Shown: positions 6,911 through 39,228 of the stretch, one piece after another
Position numbering within the stretch: position 1 is the first letter of the stretch
How the letters are laid out: each line of letters opens with the position of its first letter
Virus record (IMG/VR): IMGVR_UViG_3300008267_000082
Span: 1 to 47,394 of that record
DNA from: a virus
Strand: one strand, 5' to 3'
Length of the DNA: 47,394 nucleotides
Program-made: the position numbers and the translations under genes
Notes under the pieces: model-generated
What the model was told of the DNA's origin: nothing
The model's input: the letters and a program-made list of their open reading frames with translations, nothing else
The model's database searches: none

Positions 6911-7369
6911 TTATTGGTTTTCAATCTGTTGCTTGACGTCCCTTCTGAACCATTTGCCTTGAATATTCTCGTTGTAGCTGTCTGTGGAAAGCACTTCGTA
7001 TACCATCTGATAAAACACTTCGTAGTAGGAAAGTTGTTTTTTTGAGAAGCAAAATTCTATAATCTCTCTTTTGAATTTGTGTGGACCCAAAACTTTGACG
7101 TCTTCTAAAAGAGGCTTACAGCTGCCATAGTATTTTACCCAATCGGATTCTTTTACGATCTTGGTTTTGTTTGGTACCTTACCAGGTTTGCTCCACTCTG
7201 ATTTCTCTTTGAGAGTTAGTTTTTTGGTAAGTAAGTTTCTTAAGATTTTTTTACCGATATAGATTTTACCGGTTTCTGCGTTGTATATCTTATATACAAA
7301 TCCAATACAGTTTTCAGGAAAGTCTTCTAGAGTTAAATACTCTTGATCTTGATATAACCAATTTGTCAT
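6911..7369 (-). CDS. GIY-YIG-like endonuclease domain protein
   Basis: Residues 23-41 read GFVYKIYNAETGKIYIGKK, a GIY-YIG-type opening with the first motif as G-F-V-Y and the second as I-Y-I-G-K. Further on, ESDWVKYYGSCKPL fits a phage GIY-YIG subfamily in which a D-W-x-x-Y-Y-G-S block follows the catalytic region. The protein is 152 residues. Members cut DNA as homing or repair nucleases; free-standing versions are common in T4-like phages. It is the last gene of the minus-strand unit and is preceded by its own TATTTATAA motif, so it may be expressed separately from the tail genes. Confidence 0.7.
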   Translation of the reverse strand: MTNWLYQDQEYLTLEDFPENCIGFVYKIYNAETGKIYIGKKILRNLLTKKLTLKEKSEWSKPGKVPNKTKIVKESDWVKYYGSCKPLLEDVKVLGPHKFKREIIEFCFSKKQLSYYEVFYQMVYEVLSTDSYNENIQGKWFRRDVKQQIENQ

Positions 7370-10017: not shown

Positions 10018-10728
10018 TTATTGTTGAGATAATAATTGCGTTTGAACATTTGATTGTATTGTCGATATTTTATTTAATACGTCCAAAGTTATATCTTCAG
10101 GTATTGCAAATCCGTATCCAGTATATCCATAAGTTATATTTAAGGGAATTATTATATTTTGTTCATCTTGCAATTTTTTTACAATAAGGAATTCACTAAT
10201 TTGATCGGGATTATTCTGGAAGTATATATCTAAATTTGGATCAACTGTTATTTGTAAAACATTTGCTATATTAGAAACTGCGCTAATAGTTAAAATCTGA
10301 ATACGTCCATCATAAGATTTTATAACTATTTTGTCATTAAATCTTGGAGAAAATGGATAATTAATATTTCCGTATCTCGTGTATAAACTATTTTCAAATT
10401 CTGGCGTAGCATCCTGAGATATTCTATAAATAGGAACTTGTTGATAATCTTCTGTAAAAGAACTAATAATCGTGTTAAATATAATAACATTTGGAGGTTG
10501 GGTTGAATATATGAAGTTTCCATATTCTGCGCTTGAAGTCGCATAAGGATAACCTCCAATACTTACTGGTTGGATATCGACCGTTAAACTCCCAGTACTA
10601 ACTGATCCCGTCCAATTTCCACTTGTAGGTTGATATTCACTTATAAATTCAAAAGTAAATTCGTCGCCCGCGTAACAATTGCTAAGCGTAGTTGAAATAG
10701 AATATTTTAAAGATCCTGATGTTGCCAT
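10018..10728 (-). CDS. Virion structural protein
   Basis: The product has 236 residues, beta-rich with a short helical C-terminus (LDVLNKISTIQSNVQTQLLS, about 214-233). It starts five bases after the stop of the intein-bearing gene. Its composition (S, T, Y, N, few charges) matches the neighbouring tail proteins. It contains no intein block, so it is not an obvious trans-splicing partner for the upstream protein. No family recognised. Confidence 0.55.
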   Translation of the reverse strand: MATSGSLKYSISTTLSNCYAGDEFTFEFISEYQPTSGNWTGSVSTGSLTVDIQPVSIGGYPYATSSAEYGNFIYSTQPPNVIIFNTIISSFTEDYQQVPIYRISQDATPEFENSLYTRYGNINYPFSPRFNDKIVIKSYDGRIQILTISAVSNIANVLQITVDPNLDIYFQNNPDQISEFLIVKKLQDEQNIIIPLNITYGYTGYGFAIPEDITLDVLNKISTIQSNVQTQLLSQQ

Positions 10729-10733
10729 TATTA

Positions 10734-11624
10734 TTAATTAAATACATGAATACTGTCGATAACTATTTCTTCTAAATTTTTATTAATTACAATATCTCCC
10801 AAAATTAATTCTTCAGACGTAAGATTACTCCATTCTCCGTTTCTTTTGATAACGTGCTTGTGAGAATCTGAACATCTAATAAGACCATTATTCAATAAAT
10901 ATAATTTTTCAACTTCATGAAAGCTCTTAGAAGTTACAATAGATTCCTCGTATTTCATAGTTTCAGGATCTATAGAAAGTAAACTATCTCCAACATTTAT
11001 GTCTTTTAAAAATACATTTTTTCCATCATATAACTCTAATAAAGTATCAGGTGTTAGACAATTTTTTTGTATACTTCCGTTTACATATGAATATTCTCCG
11101 AATGGAAATCTGTTTGTAGCTGATCTACCTGAGGCATCTGTTGCAGTCATTACAGCTTGCCAATAAAAAGTTCCATCAGACGTATTTCCTAAAGTTTGTA
11201 TAGAGAATGATACGGGATTATTTGCCTGCCAACCAAAAAATGATGGTTGATAAGTCATATAACCAGATGTACTTATACCAAAAGTAGAACTATATGTAGT
11301 TCTCCCGCCTTGGAACTGCAATTTTACCATAGGATATGCTTGTGTGCCTGCACATGAAGCGCCGTCTTCAATCTGAAAATAATTTGCACTACCATCAGTA
11401 TTAGAAGATATAGTTATCGTTATAGGTAAACTTGGTACATAACTACTTTGATAAAATATCTTTGGTTTTATTAATCCGCTTTTGAAATCTATTGTTCTAG
11501 CAGAATATGTAGTTCCACCGGGGCACTCAACAGTGCCGGGATTTTTAACATAATTGTGAGTTAATATGCCATTAGCTACGTATCTTTGTGTAGTTGTAGA
11601 TATGTTTACTACTTGATATTTCAT
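10734..11624 (-). CDS. Inside-out split intein protein: IntC - middle segment - IntN
   Basis: Residues 1-24 are the C-terminal end of an intein: block F (YQVVNISTTTQRYVANG) and block G ending T-H-N, with the penultimate His23 and terminal Asn24. Residues 189-296 are the N-terminal part of an intein: Cys189 opening block A (CLTPDTLLELYDG, then INVGD) and block B with IRCSDSHKHVI. Joined in the usual order they make a mini-intein of 132 residues, split where natural split inteins and homing-endonuclease insertions lie. The 164 residues between (25-188) are beta-rich, with cysteines in VECPGG and GASCAGT, and look like a tail protein. This order predicts a cyclic middle segment, or head-to-tail joining of copies. 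The residue after Asn24 is Tyr, not C/S/T, as in A-type bacterial intein-like domains. The gene lies between a large baseplate protein and other virion genes. Confidence 0.85.
   Translation of the reverse strand: MKYQVVNISTTTQRYVANGILTHNYVKNPGTVECPGGTTYSARTIDFKSGLIKPKIFYQSSYVPSLPITITISSNTDGSANYFQIEDGASCAGTQAYPMVKLQFQGGRTTYSSTFGISTSGYMTYQPSFFGWQANNPVSFSIQTLGNTSDGTFYWQAVMTATDASGRSATNRFPFGEYSYVNGSIQKNCLTPDTLLELYDGKNVFLKDINVGDSLLSIDPETMKYEESIVTSKSFHEVEKLYLLNNGLIRCSDSHKHVIKRNGEWSNLTSEELILGDIVINKNLEEIVIDSIHVFN
10737..11060 (-). other. IntN (Hint N-terminal) domain at the protein's C-terminus
   Basis: These codons give 108 residues starting at Cys189, preceded by Asn188. Block A (CLTPDTLL) and block B (SDSH in place of the usual T-x-x-H, followed by K-H) are both recognisable. 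The domain ends EEIVIDSIHVFN just before the stop, at the point where a full intein would continue into block F. Confidence 0.85.
11553..11624 (-). other. IntC (intein C-terminal) motif at the protein's N-terminus
   Basis: These are the first 24 codons, ending G-I-L-T-H-N. His23 and Asn24 are the residues needed for Asn cyclisation and C-terminal cleavage. It is shorter than most known IntC pieces (about 35-40 residues) but covers blocks F and G. The following residue, Tyr25, would become the free N-terminus after cleavage. Confidence 0.85.
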
Positions 11625-11638
11625 TTTTTTACGATTTT

Positions 11639-14600
11639 TTATAGAGTTCCATAAGTTTCTCCAAAAGTAATATAGTAAGAGTTTCCTGGATAGTTTCCTC
11701 CTGATCCTCCGCCTGTTCCATCTGAGTTAAATACATAACTTCGCGAAGTTTGAGTAATTCCATTCTTTTTAATTAACATAGTAAAAGATCCGCTCTCTGC
11801 ATCGTTAGACGCAGTTATATTAAAATCAAATTTCAAATTAATAACATAATTACCCGCGTTTTTTACTAAATAACTCGTATAATCTAAAGACGAAGTACTA
11901 CCAGCAGAATGAGCGCCAGATTCATCAACTACTTCAACATCGAATAAATTGTATATGGAACTAGTCATACCAGATCCAGAAGGAATAAGAGGGTATTGTA
12001 GACTTGTAGATCCTGAGACATAATTATTTGGGAATACTTCGTTTTTAGCCAACGCATATGAATCACCTGTTCCTAAATACGAAAAGTAAACTTTTTTATC
12101 ACTCGCAGCATTAAAATAAAGCATAGGAGCGTAACTATATCCACTTTCGTAAATATTATGAACTGCATTAGTAGATAATTGTTCGCTATCAAAAAAGTTA
12201 TTCTTATTGTCAAATTGTTTTATGGTTAATGTATTACCCGCCTTAAAAGTATTTTGTATTTCAAATAAATTATTATTGGATTGGTTTAATTCGTTAATTC
12301 CACTAACTTTATCAGCCAAATAAACTAGTGTAATATCGGAGAATCCGGGAAAAAATTGACTAGTTTTTATTTGAGAAAATAAACCTAGTTTTTGAGTTCT
12401 AAGATCTATAACTGGAGAATTTCCATAAGATTTATCACCCGCCCAAGTAGAAGATGCTGTGGTATATATATTATATCTTTTACTTTGTAGTTTAGATCCA
12501 TAATATCTTGGTATAGTGCTTCTTTGAGTAAAGTAATTAAAGTCTTGTAACTCTGCGTAAGGATTATTTTTATCAGTATACGTATTGAAATTGTTGGATA
12601 CAGAATTATTTACTGATTGAGTAATTAATCCAAAATTAACAGGTACAATAGAATTATATGAATAGTCTAAATCTAAATATTTCGTAGATCTAACAGATCC
12701 CGTTACGTTGTTTATAAGAGCGTCCAAATAAACGACGCTAGATGTTAGCGCATTACTTGATTTTTCTGTTTGATTCCCTAGACTAGTTAAACTGGTTGCC
12801 ACAAATTCCGTGCCCATATATTCTCCCGTAAACTTCTCCATGCCAAAAGACTGAGTTGCTGGTATATAACCTATGGAAGACGGTATATCTTGATAAACAG
12901 TGGTATCCGCTGAATAGCTAGTGGCAGCAAAAGCTGATATGGTTCCTATATCTATAGATTCTGAATAATGAGCAAACGTGACTTCGGGTTCATGACGAGC
13001 GTATTTACTTCTCTCTAGTATGTGTGGCTTTATAATAATTCCAGTAGATACATTAGATCTTGCTGGAACAAAGTCTTTCACCATCTTGAACAGAGAATTA
13101 TTATAGTACTTTATTAATCTAATGTATTCCCATATCGATTTATCTTTATTATACGAATTAAAATAATTATTTCTATAATTATCTAAACTATTATAAGATG
13201 CAGAATACAAATTTTTTGGATCTCCTATATATGTATCTATGTTAAAAACGCTAGATAAAGAAGAAGATAGATTGCTATTAATTTTATCTGAAGGCGAAAA
13301 TCCTATTTCTACGTTATAGCTACTCAACCTATTTGAGTCATTATATTTTTGAATTGTAGTGTAAGCGCTTAAAACAGATTCTGATAGGTATAAAGCTGAG
13401 CTTTGACTAATTATTGATATTTTATCATTATTTATAGAATCTATACCTGAAACAGAATTTCGATTATATCCACCGAATTCGTTAACAGTTAGTATGCTAC
13501 TAGGTATTCCATAACACGCTATCAAAGCTTTTATTCCCCTTTGTGTGCCTCTAGTTTTTAATAGATACGGTAAATTATGATATATTCGTTTATATATTTC
13601 CTTCTGCGTTTGATCATATGGAAGTATATATGGTCTTCCAGATCCAGAAATACTTGACGTTACGTAGGTATTAATTTTTTCCGATCCTGTAGGAGGCAGC
13701 AAAGAATTTTCATTGTTTGTACCAAATAAAGAATAATATACATCATTAGATAGATTTGTATTGGTATATAATTCTATGCCAAATCCTTTTAAAGCATCTG
13801 AAACTAAGTCTAAAGATATTCCTTCATATGGATTATTTGAAGCGTTATATCTATTTGTAATATCTTTATAATATATCCATATATTGTCGAAATATTGACC
13901 AATCATGTCAATAAATGTTATATACGATTCATTACTATTATCGTCTCTTAAATATTGTGGTACCGAAAATCTTAGTATGTCTTTGTTAGTGCTGTCGTAA
14001 AAAGATGCTGAGAATAAAACTGATGCTGTAGTAGCATTAGGTACAGTTGTTGGCGATCCTAACCAAGAAATCGCTTTAGACGATGTAACAGAGTGAAGAG
14101 AATACGGTTTTGTATTAGTAGATTTAGGCCAAGTAAAAGATTCAGACTCATAATAAAGATAATATTCGTAAGGATCGAATTTTTCTATTATGTTAGAAAT
14201 ATACGTATTTAGTAGATTTATCGATGAGGTTACTGTTGATTGATTGGCTGTTCCAACAACTAAACTTTGCGAATATATTTGTTTGTTGTAATCTTCTATT
14301 AATCCAAGTTTATAGACGAAATTGTTTACCCTTTCCTCAGCGCTTGAAAAGTGAATAAAATTATCAAAACTTGAATAATCTACATTTATTGATATTGCTT
14401 TATCTTCGTAATAAGACATTAATTGTCTGATTGACGAAGTTAGATTCGCAGAAAATAATGTATTATATGAATAATATCCAGTGTTCTGTCCAATTGATTG
14501 TTTGTCTTTTATATTATAGTTTGGCCCTCTTAATTTAAAAGATGTATCAATTGAAACTACTTCTACCTGTATATCAACTCTATAACTAACTGAGTTTCCT

Positions 14601-15232
14601 ATTTTTTCAACAATGGATAATTGACTTTTTAATTCTATATCAATAGGTAATGGCTCGTACAATTTTATCAAAAGGTAGGTATTACCATCAGACTCTGTTA
14701 CTACTATGGCGTTAACTGCAATGATTAAATCGTTTCTACCAAAATTCAAATAGAAATCAGGATAATAGTTCTTTTGGCTTATATAATTTTCAAATTCATT
14801 GAAGCCTGCTATTATCGATGTACCAGAAAGATCTTGAGACGCTAATTTTAACTCTAATCTAGAATTAGAGATTTCTTTAATAAAATATTGAGAAGTAGTT
14901 GAATTTGATCTAAATAGATTTTTTAAAAAATTATACTGTATATTTACAACTCCTCTGTTGTAGCCCATTGATTTTACATCTGCCTCTGGGTCTACTATTA
15001 CTCTACTATACTTATTTCCTACAATGTTAGACGTAGGATCAAGAGTGTATGGTGCATTATATTTATAATCTAATAAAAAATTAGAATCGTCTGTAATGAA
15101 ATACTCTACAGTGTCAACTCCTTCTTCAAATGTATTGTTGATATTGTTATTAGTGATTAACTGTAAATCCCTAGTGCTGTACCTTTGAATCTCAGATCCA
15201 AATCCAGTATATGATATGTTAACAATTTCCAT
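11639..15232 (-). CDS. Large baseplate/tail structural protein in the gp7 position
   Basis: At 1197 residues this is the largest protein in the window. It is rich in S, N, Y and I, predicted mostly beta with helical parts. The block NLPYLLKTRGTQRGIKALIA (about 554-573), followed by CYGIPSSILTVNEFGGY, is one I associate with very large baseplate-region proteins of marine T4-like phages. The order gp25 - gp6 - two smaller proteins - this gene parallels T4's wedge genes, where gp7 (1032 residues) is the large wedge component, so a gp7-like role is reasonable, but I see no direct sequence match to T4 gp7. The C-terminus contains a G/S-rich segment (TGGGSGG) before the last strand. It is followed 14 bases on by the inside-out intein gene. 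Confidence 0.6.
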   Translation of the reverse strand: MEIVNISYTGFGSEIQRYSTRDLQLITNNNINNTFEEGVDTVEYFITDDSNFLLDYKYNAPYTLDPTSNIVGNKYSRVIVDPEADVKSMGYNRGVVNIQYNFLKNLFRSNSTTSQYFIKEISNSRLELKLASQDLSGTSIIAGFNEFENYISQKNYYPDFYLNFGRNDLIIAVNAIVVTESDGNTYLLIKLYEPLPIDIELKSQLSIVEKIGNSVSYRVDIQVEVVSIDTSFKLRGPNYNIKDKQSIGQNTGYYSYNTLFSANLTSSIRQLMSYYEDKAISINVDYSSFDNFIHFSSAEERVNNFVYKLGLIEDYNKQIYSQSLVVGTANQSTVTSSINLLNTYISNIIEKFDPYEYYLYYESESFTWPKSTNTKPYSLHSVTSSKAISWLGSPTTVPNATTASVLFSASFYDSTNKDILRFSVPQYLRDDNSNESYITFIDMIGQYFDNIWIYYKDITNRYNASNNPYEGISLDLVSDALKGFGIELYTNTNLSNDVYYSLFGTNNENSLLPPTGSEKINTYVTSSISGSGRPYILPYDQTQKEIYKRIYHNLPYLLKTRGTQRGIKALIACYGIPSSILTVNEFGGYNRNSVSGIDSINNDKISIISQSSALYLSESVLSAYTTIQKYNDSNRLSSYNVEIGFSPSDKINSNLSSSLSSVFNIDTYIGDPKNLYSASYNSLDNYRNNYFNSYNKDKSIWEYIRLIKYYNNSLFKMVKDFVPARSNVSTGIIIKPHILERSKYARHEPEVTFAHYSESIDIGTISAFAATSYSADTTVYQDIPSSIGYIPATQSFGMEKFTGEYMGTEFVATSLTSLGNQTEKSSNALTSSVVYLDALINNVTGSVRSTKYLDLDYSYNSIVPVNFGLITQSVNNSVSNNFNTYTDKNNPYAELQDFNYFTQRSTIPRYYGSKLQSKRYNIYTTASSTWAGDKSYGNSPVIDLRTQKLGLFSQIKTSQFFPGFSDITLVYLADKVSGINELNQSNNNLFEIQNTFKAGNTLTIKQFDNKNNFFDSEQLSTNAVHNIYESGYSYAPMLYFNAASDKKVYFSYLGTGDSYALAKNEVFPNNYVSGSTSLQYPLIPSGSGMTSSIYNLFDVEVVDESGAHSAGSTSSLDYTSYLVKNAGNYVINLKFDFNITASNDAESGSFTMLIKKNGITQTSRSYVFNSDGTGGGSGGNYPGNSYYITFGETYGTL

Positions 15233-16659: not shown

Positions 16660-18513
16660 TTAAAAAGTAACTACCCTGCCTTGAATGTCTTTACCTAAGT
16701 ACTTAACTTCGAAAATACTTGGATCAAGAGATGGATATAATATATCGTTTATAGTTGCTCCTGGTATATCATAAGAATATTTAGAGTAACCAGAAGATTC
16801 TCCATATAGATTAGTAATTTGTACATTTTGAGTAGTTTGCACGCCTTGTACTTGATCTAGTAGCGAATATATATTCGATATTATTATGGGTTGATTTATT
16901 TGAAAATTATCTATATTAAAATAATCTTGTAAAGCAGTTATGCATCTAGCGATAACATCTTGACCTGAAAAATTTGGTCTAATTATGACATCAAAATTAC
17001 AACCGATATTGATTATAAAAGCACTTTTTATGTTTATAGTATCGGTCATCATTCTATATTCAGATAGATATGTATCTACGTTTTGCGATAGCGCTTGAGA
17101 TGGTTCTGCTAAATTACCAGTTGAATCTAATCCAAGTATATATAGACTAACTAATGATTGATCTCTATTCGCTGGACTATTTTTTGAATATTGAGTGAAT
17201 GTTGAATCGTCTTTTGTAACATATACTTTAGATATTTTTCCAAATTTAGGATGCATAGATAATACTCTTGACATATAATCCTGTTGAGTAACTGCTCTTA
17301 ATTGACTTGAATATTGAACCATTGAATTCATTCTCAATTCCTCTACAGTATCTCCATCGCCACCTCCAGCGGCAGGTAATGGATTATTAGTAACAACACT
17401 ATTTTGTTGAGAAGTGTTATTTCCAGTAACAGTGAAAGAAATTGGTACAGTTAGTTGATTAGATTGAGCGTTTGCTGATGCTCCACCTCCAACCAAATAT
17501 TGAACGGTTAGTGTTGTATTTTTTGGAGTTAATCCATAGGTTTGTGTAGTTACAAAATTAGTTGGGTCGAAAGCTGTATTCAGCAAAGTTAGACCGTTTG
17601 TTAATCCCATTCCTACAGTGCTTGGATCTGGTATTAGCACCGAATCAGCAACTGAATTTATACCTGATCCAAATTCTAAAATTAAAGATTGATTTGATAA
17701 CACTCTACTAATGAATCTACGAGGTACACTTATTTTATCTATAATATATGGCACTTGATTACTAAACTGATTTAGACTCGGATAATTAGTTGAAGTATTT
17801 TGAACGGGATTAAATATATAATCTTGCGCAAGATACGGAACTTCGTACCAAATATTGCCGCTACTATCAGTTACATTAACTATTGATATGATATTAGAAT
17901 CGTTTAAAGTTATTCTAGGAAATCTGTCTGAATTGCCAAAAGAAAATGTTTGAGATTTCAATTGTCCTGAAATCGCTTTTGCTGATTTCTTTAATAGATA
18001 TTTATCAGGATTTCCAGAACTCAAACTATAAATAGAAACGTCTGTTGGATCATATGATGAAGAAGTTGTAAAATCCACTTTTTCTGGTACATAAAAATAG
18101 GCAGTACTAGAAACATTAGATTGAACTTGCATCCCGGGTTGAATTACTAATGCGAAGTCAAAATCTGGATAATATTGACCGCCAACTATTTTTGAAGGCA
18201 CTGTTTGAAATACATCTAGATCTGCAATAGCAGCAGAGGTTATTTTAGGTCTATATCCTAACATATAAGCTAAAGAATATAAATTGTTTGGCTGTTTTGC
18301 ATATTGTAAAAAAGTCTCTTGTAATTGATTATCTAAATAATAAGACAACACATCTCCAATGTATGCAGCCATTTCTATAAACATAGATCCTGGGGAAGCC
18401 TGACTGAAATCATTATACACAGTGGGAAAATAAGATTTAGCGTATTCTATCAAATCTGATTTGAAAGTAGAAAAATCTTTATTTAAATAATTTATTTGTT
18501 TTTTATTTGCCAT
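16660..18513 (-). CDS. gp6: Baseplate wedge protein gp6 (baseplate J family)
   Basis: The 617 residues are close to T4 gp6 (660). The N-terminus has INYLNKDFSTFKSDLIEYAK and ASPGSMFIEMAAYIGDVLSY (about 39-58), the typical gp6/baseplate-J opening, and the middle carries EELRMNSMVQYSSQLRAVTQ and DYMSRVLSMHPKFGKI, the conserved J-type block. gp6 forms the iris ring that holds the wedges of the baseplate together and drives its change of shape at contraction. The start overlaps the gp25 stop as TAATG. The gp25-gp6 pairing is a strong context match to contractile tails in general. Confidence 0.9.
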   Translation of the reverse strand: MANKKQINYLNKDFSTFKSDLIEYAKSYFPTVYNDFSQASPGSMFIEMAAYIGDVLSYYLDNQLQETFLQYAKQPNNLYSLAYMLGYRPKITSAAIADLDVFQTVPSKIVGGQYYPDFDFALVIQPGMQVQSNVSSTAYFYVPEKVDFTTSSSYDPTDVSIYSLSSGNPDKYLLKKSAKAISGQLKSQTFSFGNSDRFPRITLNDSNIISIVNVTDSSGNIWYEVPYLAQDYIFNPVQNTSTNYPSLNQFSNQVPYIIDKISVPRRFISRVLSNQSLILEFGSGINSVADSVLIPDPSTVGMGLTNGLTLLNTAFDPTNFVTTQTYGLTPKNTTLTVQYLVGGGASANAQSNQLTVPISFTVTGNNTSQQNSVVTNNPLPAAGGGDGDTVEELRMNSMVQYSSQLRAVTQQDYMSRVLSMHPKFGKISKVYVTKDDSTFTQYSKNSPANRDQSLVSLYILGLDSTGNLAEPSQALSQNVDTYLSEYRMMTDTINIKSAFIINIGCNFDVIIRPNFSGQDVIARCITALQDYFNIDNFQINQPIIISNIYSLLDQVQGVQTTQNVQITNLYGESSGYSKYSYDIPGATINDILYPSLDPSIFEVKYLGKDIQGRVVTF

Positions 18514-18929
18514 TATTTAGTATTTTGAATAGCTATAGTTACCGTATCTGTTTCGTTAGTATTTAAAATAGTGTAAAAAAATTTTATATTTATAGAATTA
18601 TCATCAATATTAGATAGTATATCTATATTTTGCACTTCAATATTGGGAAAATTACTTTTTACTTGGCTAGCTATCTTTAATTTTATTTGATCAAAATTTT
18701 CTTGATTTATTTGTTCAAATAATATCAGTCTTAATCCGCAACCAAAATTAGGGTTCTGAGGTCTTTCATATTTATCGGTAAGCAGAAAATTAATCAAATT
18801 ATATTTTAACTGATCTTTCGTATTATAGACCGTGTTAAAAGCAGACGGAGATTCAAACGGAATACTTACACCAATTCCAGTTGATGCTCTCAAATCTAGC
18901 GGAGAAATATTTTTTATTCCGTAAGCCAT
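18513..18929 (-). CDS. gp25: Baseplate wedge protein gp25 (GPW/gp25 family)
   Basis: The 138 residues match the gp25 family: a central YNTKDQLKYNLINFLLTDKY helix, then ERPQNPNFGCGLRLILFEQ, corresponding to the conserved R-x-x-x-P-x-F-G-x-x-L block. gp25 nucleates sheath assembly on the baseplate and interacts with gp6 and gp53. The gene is coupled on both sides by TAATG overlaps (18929 and 18513). Family lengths are usually 110-140 residues, so it is complete. Confidence 0.9.
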   Translation of the reverse strand: MAYGIKNISPLDLRASTGIGVSIPFESPSAFNTVYNTKDQLKYNLINFLLTDKYERPQNPNFGCGLRLILFEQINQENFDQIKLKIASQVKSNFPNIEVQNIDILSNIDDNSINIKFFYTILNTNETDTVTIAIQNTK

Positions 18930-37629: not shown

Positions 37630-39228
37630 GTGTCTGAGCAATTAAGTATAAAAGAAAAAATAAAAGAAGAGTTCATTAAATGCGCTCAAGATCCTGTGTA
37701 CTTCATGAAGAAGTACTATACGATTCAACACCCGCAAAGAGGACGACAACTATTCGATCTATATCCTTTCCAAGAAAAAGTACTTCGATTATTTCAAAAA
37801 TATCCTGATTCAGTCATCAATAAATCTAGACAATTAGGTATCTCCACTCTAGTATCAGCATATTCGCTATGGTTAATGATTTTCAATAAGGATAAAAATA
37901 TCCTAGTAATTGCAACCAAGCAAGATACTGCGAAAAACATGGTAACTAAAGTACGATTTGCGTACGATAATTTACCGGTTTGGTTAAAAATAGGAACTGG
38001 AGCAACTGAAAATAACAGACTTAGTTTGCGTTTGGCAAACGGATCTCAAATCAAAGCTGTATCTGCTGCTGGTGATTCTGGTCGTTCTGAAGCAGTGTCT
38101 CTACTTGTAATAGATGAAGCTGCGTTTATCGATAATATAGATACTATATACACTGCGGCCAAGATGACTCTTGCTACGGGAGGAGGATGCATAGCACTTT
38201 CTACTCCAAATGGTGTCGGTAATTGGTTTCATAAGACGTACACGTCAGCACAAAAAGGAGATAATAATTTTATACCTATATCTCTGCCTTGGACAGTGCA
38301 TCCTGAGAGAGATCAGTCTTGGAGAGATATGCAAGATGTAGATCTTGGCAAAAGAAACGCTGCTCAAGAATGCGATTGCGACTTTTTAAGTTCGGGTAAT
38401 ACAGTAATAGATCCCGAAGTTCTAACTTGGTACGAAAAGAACATGATATGCGAACCTCAAGAAATGAGAGGTCCAAATAGAGCATACTGGATATGGGAAT
38501 ATCCAGATCCTATGAAGTATTATACAGTAATAGCAGACGTTGCTCGTGGAGACGGATCGGATTATTCGGCATTTCATGTCATAGATATAGAAACTATGAC
38601 TCAAGTTGCTGAATACAAATCTCAAATAGGCACAAGAGATTACGCAAATGTACTTATTGCGGCAGCTACAGAATATAATCAAGCTTTATTAGTTGTAGAA
38701 AATGCAAATATCGGTTGGGACGTAGTACAATCTATTATAGAAAGCGGATACTCAAATATTTATTATAGTCTAAAAACAGAGGGCAATTCTGATTTCAGTA
38801 CGTATTTAAACAAATTTGAAAGATCCGATGGATTGGTTCCAGGTTTTACGATGTCTCAAAGAACTAGACCTTTGGCGCTAGAAAAAATGAGAGAGGTTAT
38901 AGAAACCAAAGTTGCTGTAATAAAATCAGTAAGATTACTTGAAGAACTTAGAGTTTTTGTTTGGAAAAATAACAAACAACAAGCGATGGGGGGATATAAC
39001 GATGATTTAGTAATGAGTTTTTCCATGGCAATGTATCTAAGAGAAACATCACTAAGATATAAAAAAACAGCAGAAAGTTTAACATATAGCGCTTTAAATA
39101 ATTATTCAAAAACAACAGGCGATATGCCTTTATATAACTCAAATAGTCACGTTAATCAAAATTCTTGGACCATGCAGATTAATAATCCTGGAGGCCAAGA
39201 AACTCACGATTTAACGTGGTTAATATAA
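37630..39228 (+). CDS. gp17: Terminase large subunit (gp17)
   Basis: The 532-residue packaging motor starts with GTG. The ATPase domain has the adenine-binding YPFQ (45-48), a Walker A-like SRQLGIST (66-73), Walker B LLVIDEAAF (158-166) and the coupling motif STPNG (191-195). The nuclease domain has IADVARGDGSDYSAFHVID (301-319, with D303 as a metal ligand) and later D residues around GGYNDDLVMS. It cuts and pumps phage DNA into the prohead. Length is a little below that of T4 gp17 (610). No small terminase gene (gp16) is recognisable next to it, and unlike in T4 the sheath and tube genes are not between it and the portal gene. Confidence 0.95.
   Translation: MSEQLSIKEKIKEEFIKCAQDPVYFMKKYYTIQHPQRGRQLFDLYPFQEKVLRLFQKYPDSVINKSRQLGISTLVSAYSLWLMIFNKDKNILVIATKQDTAKNMVTKVRFAYDNLPVWLKIGTGATENNRLSLRLANGSQIKAVSAAGDSGRSEAVSLLVIDEAAFIDNIDTIYTAAKMTLATGGGCIALSTPNGVGNWFHKTYTSAQKGDNNFIPISLPWTVHPERDQSWRDMQDVDLGKRNAAQECDCDFLSSGNTVIDPEVLTWYEKNMICEPQEMRGPNRAYWIWEYPDPMKYYTVIADVARGDGSDYSAFHVIDIETMTQVAEYKSQIGTRDYANVLIAAATEYNQALLVVENANIGWDVVQSIIESGYSNIYYSLKTEGNSDFSTYLNKFERSDGLVPGFTMSQRTRPLALEKMREVIETKVAVIKSVRLLEELRVFVWKNNKQQAMGGYNDDLVMSFSMAMYLRETSLRYKKTAESLTYSALNNYSKTTGDMPLYNSNSHVNQNSWTMQINNPGGQETHDLTWLI

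Follow-up and report, generated by a model that had tools for sequence, protein, structure and literature searches.

The locus described here raises the question of how a phage would use a gene in which the two parts of an intein-like domain stand in reversed order around another protein, and what becomes of the protein enclosed between them. The gene lies within the window, i.e. the whole stretch of 47,394 nucleotides of viral DNA that was analysed, and is an open reading frame from ATG to stop of 296 amino acids at positions 10734–11624 on the minus strand. On the same strand its first 24 residues (11553–11624) form the C-terminal part of a Hint domain (IntC) with the blocks F and G, residues 25–188 (11061–11552) form a middle or extein part of 164 amino acids which is beta-rich by prediction, and residues 189–296 (10737–11060, 108 amino acids) form the N-terminal Hint part (IntN) with the blocks A and B. 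IntC has the sequence MKYQVVNISTTTQRYVANGILTHN and ends with LTHN, containing Thr22, His23 and Asn24. IntN opens with CLTPDTLLELYDG (block A, CLTPDT...), carries block B as SDSHKHVI with Ser252 and His255, and closes with IDSIHVFN before the stop codon. The middle starts with Tyr25 at +1, has Lys27 at +3 and ends with Asn188 at −1. A sequence-only reading had proposed that this reading frame encodes a natural inside-out split intein, and its coordinates and residues could be reproduced exactly.

The two ends of the protein are complementary parts of one Hint domain, with nothing repeated and little lost. A Hint profile was built from 18 normal-order Hint domains of other viral contigs, excluding the window gene, and was compared with the two ends rejoined in normal order (132 amino acids). 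The rejoined sequence matches the profile end to end (1–150) with 88 bits, as do the corresponding sequences of the related contigs L002 (88 bits) and L051 (80 bits), and the best of 500 shuffled sequences reached 10.3 bits against the same profile, which rules out a chance motif. The N-part covers profile positions 1–122 and the C-part positions 133–150, and the break is located in the loop before block F. In the native order, profile positions 136–150 are found at residues 10–24 and positions 1–122 at residues 189–293; IntN alone scores 66 bits. The earlier proposal that the joined ends form a whole mini-intein of 132 residues holds over the entire profile and without overlap. By its fold (see below) and by the blocks A, B, F and G, which make up one domain, the protein belongs to the Hint superfamily.

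We also considered an ordinary split intein encoded by two genes and rejected it, as the gene itself is the only Hint match in the window and in the related contigs, which are partial. No second Hint half was found in these sequences, a partner elsewhere in the genome being possible; the two halves of the protein are thus each other's only visible partners. A weak PF14890 intein match at 38632–38799 is spurious since it lies inside the unbroken open reading frame of the terminase large subunit.

The same order of IntC, middle and IntN recurs in viral contigs. It was found in L002 and L003, which look like one phage lineage and have 81% identity to the window protein, and in L051, which was detected by searching the DNA for a block G close to an ATG and encodes a protein of 258 amino acids with 39% overall identity. 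As these three contigs besides the window carry the identical order, an assembly artefact is ruled out, and the arrangement is present in two further phage lineages. In-frame stop codons are found 4 codons upstream of the ATG in L051 and 6 codons upstream in L002, so that the start of the permuted gene is tightly bounded. Searches with an alignment pattern and with the middle alone returned the known contigs only, and tblastn against phages gave no whole relative of the window protein. Among the matches listed in a wider search of viral contigs for an ATG-proximal IntC there were only this family, ordinary inteins and frame matches, and the ATG-proximal IntC pattern yielded one normal intein in a helicase and nothing else in bacterial genomes. 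When rejoined and normal-order Hint domains of viruses were placed in one tree, the three permuted ones clustered near the Hints of phage structural proteins with a support of 94/69, which is below the usual mark, and this grouping suggests that the permutation may have happened once. In four contigs (L136, L137, L138 and L058) we noticed tandem Hint domains which are only 1–3 residues apart (e.g. ...LVHN-YKA-CFIAG...); a tandem pair that lost its outer halves would have the order IntC-X-IntN.

Between the window protein and L051 the alignment gives identities of 67% for IntC, 47% for IntN and ∼31% for the middle, which is 37 residues shorter in L051 (127 instead of 164 amino acids) and still detectable as a homologue (BLAST E 0.002). 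For the window and L002 we obtained dN/dS values of ∼0.09 for IntC, ∼0.12 for IntN and ∼0.13 for the middle, which are rough because of small counts and a high dS. Cys189 (position 1), Ser252 and His255 of block B, and Thr22-His23-Asn24 are invariant in all three permuted lineages; a loss of Cys189, His23 or Asn24 was looked for in the close relatives, and all three are kept even at 39% identity. Since C-terminal release alone needs no Cys1, the retention of Cys1 as well as Asn24 suggests that both junctions are under selection. The Hint ends could in principle be a relic that is either inert or purely structural, clamping the termini of the middle to each other inside the virion. The low Pfam scores, which stay below the cut-off (in native order for the window protein), as well as the missing nucleophile at +1 agree with this explanation. 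Yet L051 keeps all of the tested catalytic residues although its IntN is only 47% identical, and both Hint halves have a low dN/dS; we consider a relic very improbable. On the contrary, a real, conserved and permuted Hint domain with an intact set of catalytic residues, as first proposed for the window alone, is practically certain, and to judge from this conservation the domain is very probably still reactive.

The phage has a contractile tail, and the permuted gene comes shortly after its baseplate genes, in the run of genes following gp25. The gene of the gp25 baseplate wedge protein (18513–18929, minus strand, Pfam PF04965 above the cut-off) is at the start of this module, and the window also carries terminase and portal genes. 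Upstream, a tail protein of 1197 amino acids is encoded (11639–15232, minus strand) and downstream a protein of 236 amino acids (10018–10728, minus strand); the permuted gene begins 14 bases after the former gene and ends 5 bases before the latter. These neighbours are conserved beside the gene and are the same in L002, L003 and L051 as far as each contig extends, L051 having homologues of the 1197-, 236- and 219-amino acid proteins of the window. Distant homologues of the 1197-amino acid protein are found in Flavobacterium phage immuto, in which no permuted gene was seen; the adjoining immuto gene was rejected as a homologue of the 236-amino acid protein. The tail module closes with an open reading frame of 152 amino acids (6911–7369, minus strand), which matches phage families including a homing endonuclease (phrog_314) and is conserved in the corresponding position of L002 and L051. 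We call the middle a tail protein from the position of its gene only: this position speaks for the designation, which had been made before, but the middle of the window protein matched no Pfam family.

The residues at the junctions give a hint which chemistry might be used. At +1 the window protein and the L002/L003 lineage carry Tyr and L051 carries Lys; at −1 the residues are Asn, Asn and Glu, respectively. Both lineages with Tyr have a Lys at +3. As there is no Cys, Ser or Thr at +1, canonical splicing or cyclisation by transesterification is excluded. With Cys189 all members have the Cys or Ser of class 1 inteins at position 1, and an ordinary class 1 intein was rejected because of the Tyr or Lys at +1, the swapped order and the poorly conserved middle. 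Type A BILs are defined by Cys1 and a C-terminal His-Asn without a +1 nucleophile (PMC4031507), and by these residues the permuted family falls under the definition. Its nearest solved relatives by sequence and fold are indeed BILs, in line with the previously suggested A-type chemistry. The normal N-to-C order of a single domain is not found, and hence the domain is a permuted variant and not an ordinary member.

For the structure prediction in native order, an alignment of 26 rows was used in which unpaired N- and C-parts of normal Hint domains were aligned to the two ends. AlphaFold2 then gave block mean pLDDT values of 90–98 for residues 1–20 and 189–296 (92 and 94 for residues 1–20), so that both ends are modelled with high confidence as Hint parts of the native chain; the middle is poor with pLDDT below 50 for residues 27–134. 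With 3 rows the pLDDT was 31, and a good model of both halves requires that the alignment contains normal Hints. That the two ends meet in one active site is suggested by the fold and by the high confidence reached for the short IntC, since a piece of 24 residues is hardly expected to fold on its own. Foldseek aligns in sequence order, and only the larger Hint part was usable; the top match of the window model was BIL2 of Tetrahymena BUBL1, followed by the C. thermocellum BIL, and the probability against BIL and intein structures was 1.00. In a sequence search of the PDB the rejoined window domain found BIL2 as top match (aligned residues 5–131, E 0.005), and the rejoined L051 domain alone gave weak matches only. 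With phmmer E values of 1e-20 to 5e-27, Hints from structural proteins of phages are the closest in sequence. The permuted domain groups with these and with A-type BIL domains and not with homing inteins.

Our best reading is that a permuted A-type BIL wraps a tail protein of the baseplate region and excises itself from both of its ends. The permuted domain, its conservation, its affinity to BILs and its gene context were computed; we infer an association in cis, the breakage of both bonds and a ligation. We suggest that the first 24 and the last 108 residues of one chain would associate after translation into a single Hint fold, and the two termini of the middle would thereby come to lie in a shared active site. 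Cyclisation of Asn24 would free the amine of Tyr25, and Cys189 would form a thioester from the bond that links it to Asn188. The acyl group might then be taken by the freed amine of Tyr25, or by the nearby Lys27, and the 164-residue middle would close to a ring or to a Lys-linked lariat, the Hint halves leaving as a non-covalent complex. Hydrolysis would compete and leave the middle as a linear chain with trimmed ends. A backbone-cyclic (or Lys-linked lariat) middle, formed without a +1 nucleophile, appears to be the likeliest single outcome and main product, with a rough probability of about 0.4.

Several observations argue for ring closure. The termini complement each other to a complete Hint without overlap, and both have pLDDT values above 90. 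Cys189, His255 and the Thr-His-Asn ending are kept in all lineages while the middle diverges to 31%, and the low dN/dS in both Hint halves (0.09 and 0.12) would fit a domain in use. Both nearest solved relatives point in the same direction by analogy: Tetrahymena BIL2 ligates to a Lys side chain with an isopeptide bond and without Cys, Ser or Thr at +1 (PMC8616854), and the C. thermocellum BIL, as cited in PMC4031507, ligates without these residues as well (Aranko 2013). In addition, the THN ending, which in gp41-1 is reported to allow efficient C-cleavage with many +1 residues (PMC12245125), may favour the release of the middle. Against the ring, the +1 residue is Tyr or Lys, pairing of the Hint halves in cis and in trans is alike compatible with the sequence data, and the AlphaFold2 model has a poor middle and good halves that depend on normal Hints in the alignment.

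The fate of the thioester would decide whether a ring or a linear protein is formed. For type A BILs it has been proposed that a thioester forms at the N-junction, that the Asn cyclises and that the freed amine attacks; they can ligate, and cleavage products dominate (PMC4031507). In a Magnetospirillum BIL with Tyr at +1 no splicing was observed until the Tyr was changed to Cys (PMC4031507). By analogy, these data weaken the case for a ring and, together with the lack of a +1 nucleophile in any permuted member and the promiscuous C-cleavage favoured by THN (PMC12245125), fit a self-trimming at both ends, in which the permuted Hint forms, the thioester is hydrolysed and a linear 164-residue tail protein matures without a protease. 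However, such trimming needs no swapped-order halves on one protein, the layout would place the freed amine beside the thioester and favour ligation, and the two BILs mentioned above ligate without a nucleophilic +1 side chain or via Lys (PMC8616854; Aranko 2013, as cited in PMC4031507). We regard such trimming as somewhat less probable than ring closure and as one of its main rivals.

An unlikely alternative to closure within one chain is a joining between molecules, either because the halves pair between chains, which would lead to head-to-tail chaining, or because the Lys of another virion protein captures the thioester with an isopeptide bond. BIL2 with its ubiquitin-like domains sets a precedent for Lys isopeptide bonds (PMC8616854), and each lineage has a Lys soon after the junction (+1 in L051, otherwise +3). 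Among the collected viral Hints without Cys, Ser or Thr at +1, 20 of 24 have Lys at +1 or +2 vs 3 of 90 with such a residue, a comparison that leaves out the permuted genes and one false match and whose significance is overstated by related sequences. This excess would fit a capture by Lys amines as in BIL2 and points to amine capture as a possible general habit of phage Hints. Nevertheless, the window protein is devoid of Lys at +1 and +2, and a tethered split domain is expected to pair faster within its own chain.

Among the contigs behind this comparison are L018, L025, L029, L032, L043, L052, L058, L072, L075, L123, L136 and L137. The 831-amino acid open reading frame of L072 (minus strand) encodes a structural protein of a phage in which a Gly-rich linker is followed by a Hint with Tyr at +1 and then by a tail (SDRRLKKNI...) that may resemble an intramolecular chaperone. 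In phage NCTB (L013/L014) three adjacent genes of the tail region end in normal-order Hints, the +1 residue being Lys or Ala in the measured cases. The ordinary split-intein IntC genes among the viral contigs (L063, L067, L103, L143) have Cys, Ser or Thr at +1.

Cyclic proteins are routinely made in the laboratory with inside-out inteins, and in the open-access literature we found no report of a natural one. If ligation takes place, the gene would represent a natural origin of gene-encoded cyclic proteins via an intein-like domain and a new way of strengthening the virion. If only trimming takes place, it would still be a new architecture, a self-maturation in which a single split catalyst processes a viral structural protein at its two ends. 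For protein engineering, a short natural split Hint (24 and 108 amino acids) with THN that tolerates Tyr or Lys at +1 might be of use.

Compared with known systems, the domain shares with A-type BILs including that of C. thermocellum (2LWY) the Hint fold, Cys1, the C-terminal His-Asn, the absence of Cys, Ser or Thr at +1 and a location outside conserved housekeeping sites. In the known BILs, however, the N-part is followed by the C-part in one domain, whereas the order here is swapped around a whole protein. Tetrahymena BUBL1 BIL2 (6Y75, 6TMM), the best solved match, also lacks a canonical +1 nucleophile and adjoins a processed domain, but it has the normal order, is flanked by two ubiquitin-like domains and forms isopeptide bonds to Lys. 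The Hints that lie towards the C-terminal end of structural phage proteins (L032, L072, L075, L123, L043, L069 and others) likewise have a non-nucleophilic +1 residue; they differ by their normal order, usually after a Gly-rich linker, and by a short C-terminal piece. Natural split inteins (DnaE, gp41-type) are broken in the same loop before block F, but their halves are on two proteins and +1 is Cys, Ser or Thr. The gene layout itself is that of SICLOPPS (IntC-target-IntN), which is man-made from split inteins with Cys or Ser at +1, whereas the gene described here is natural and uses Tyr or Lys.
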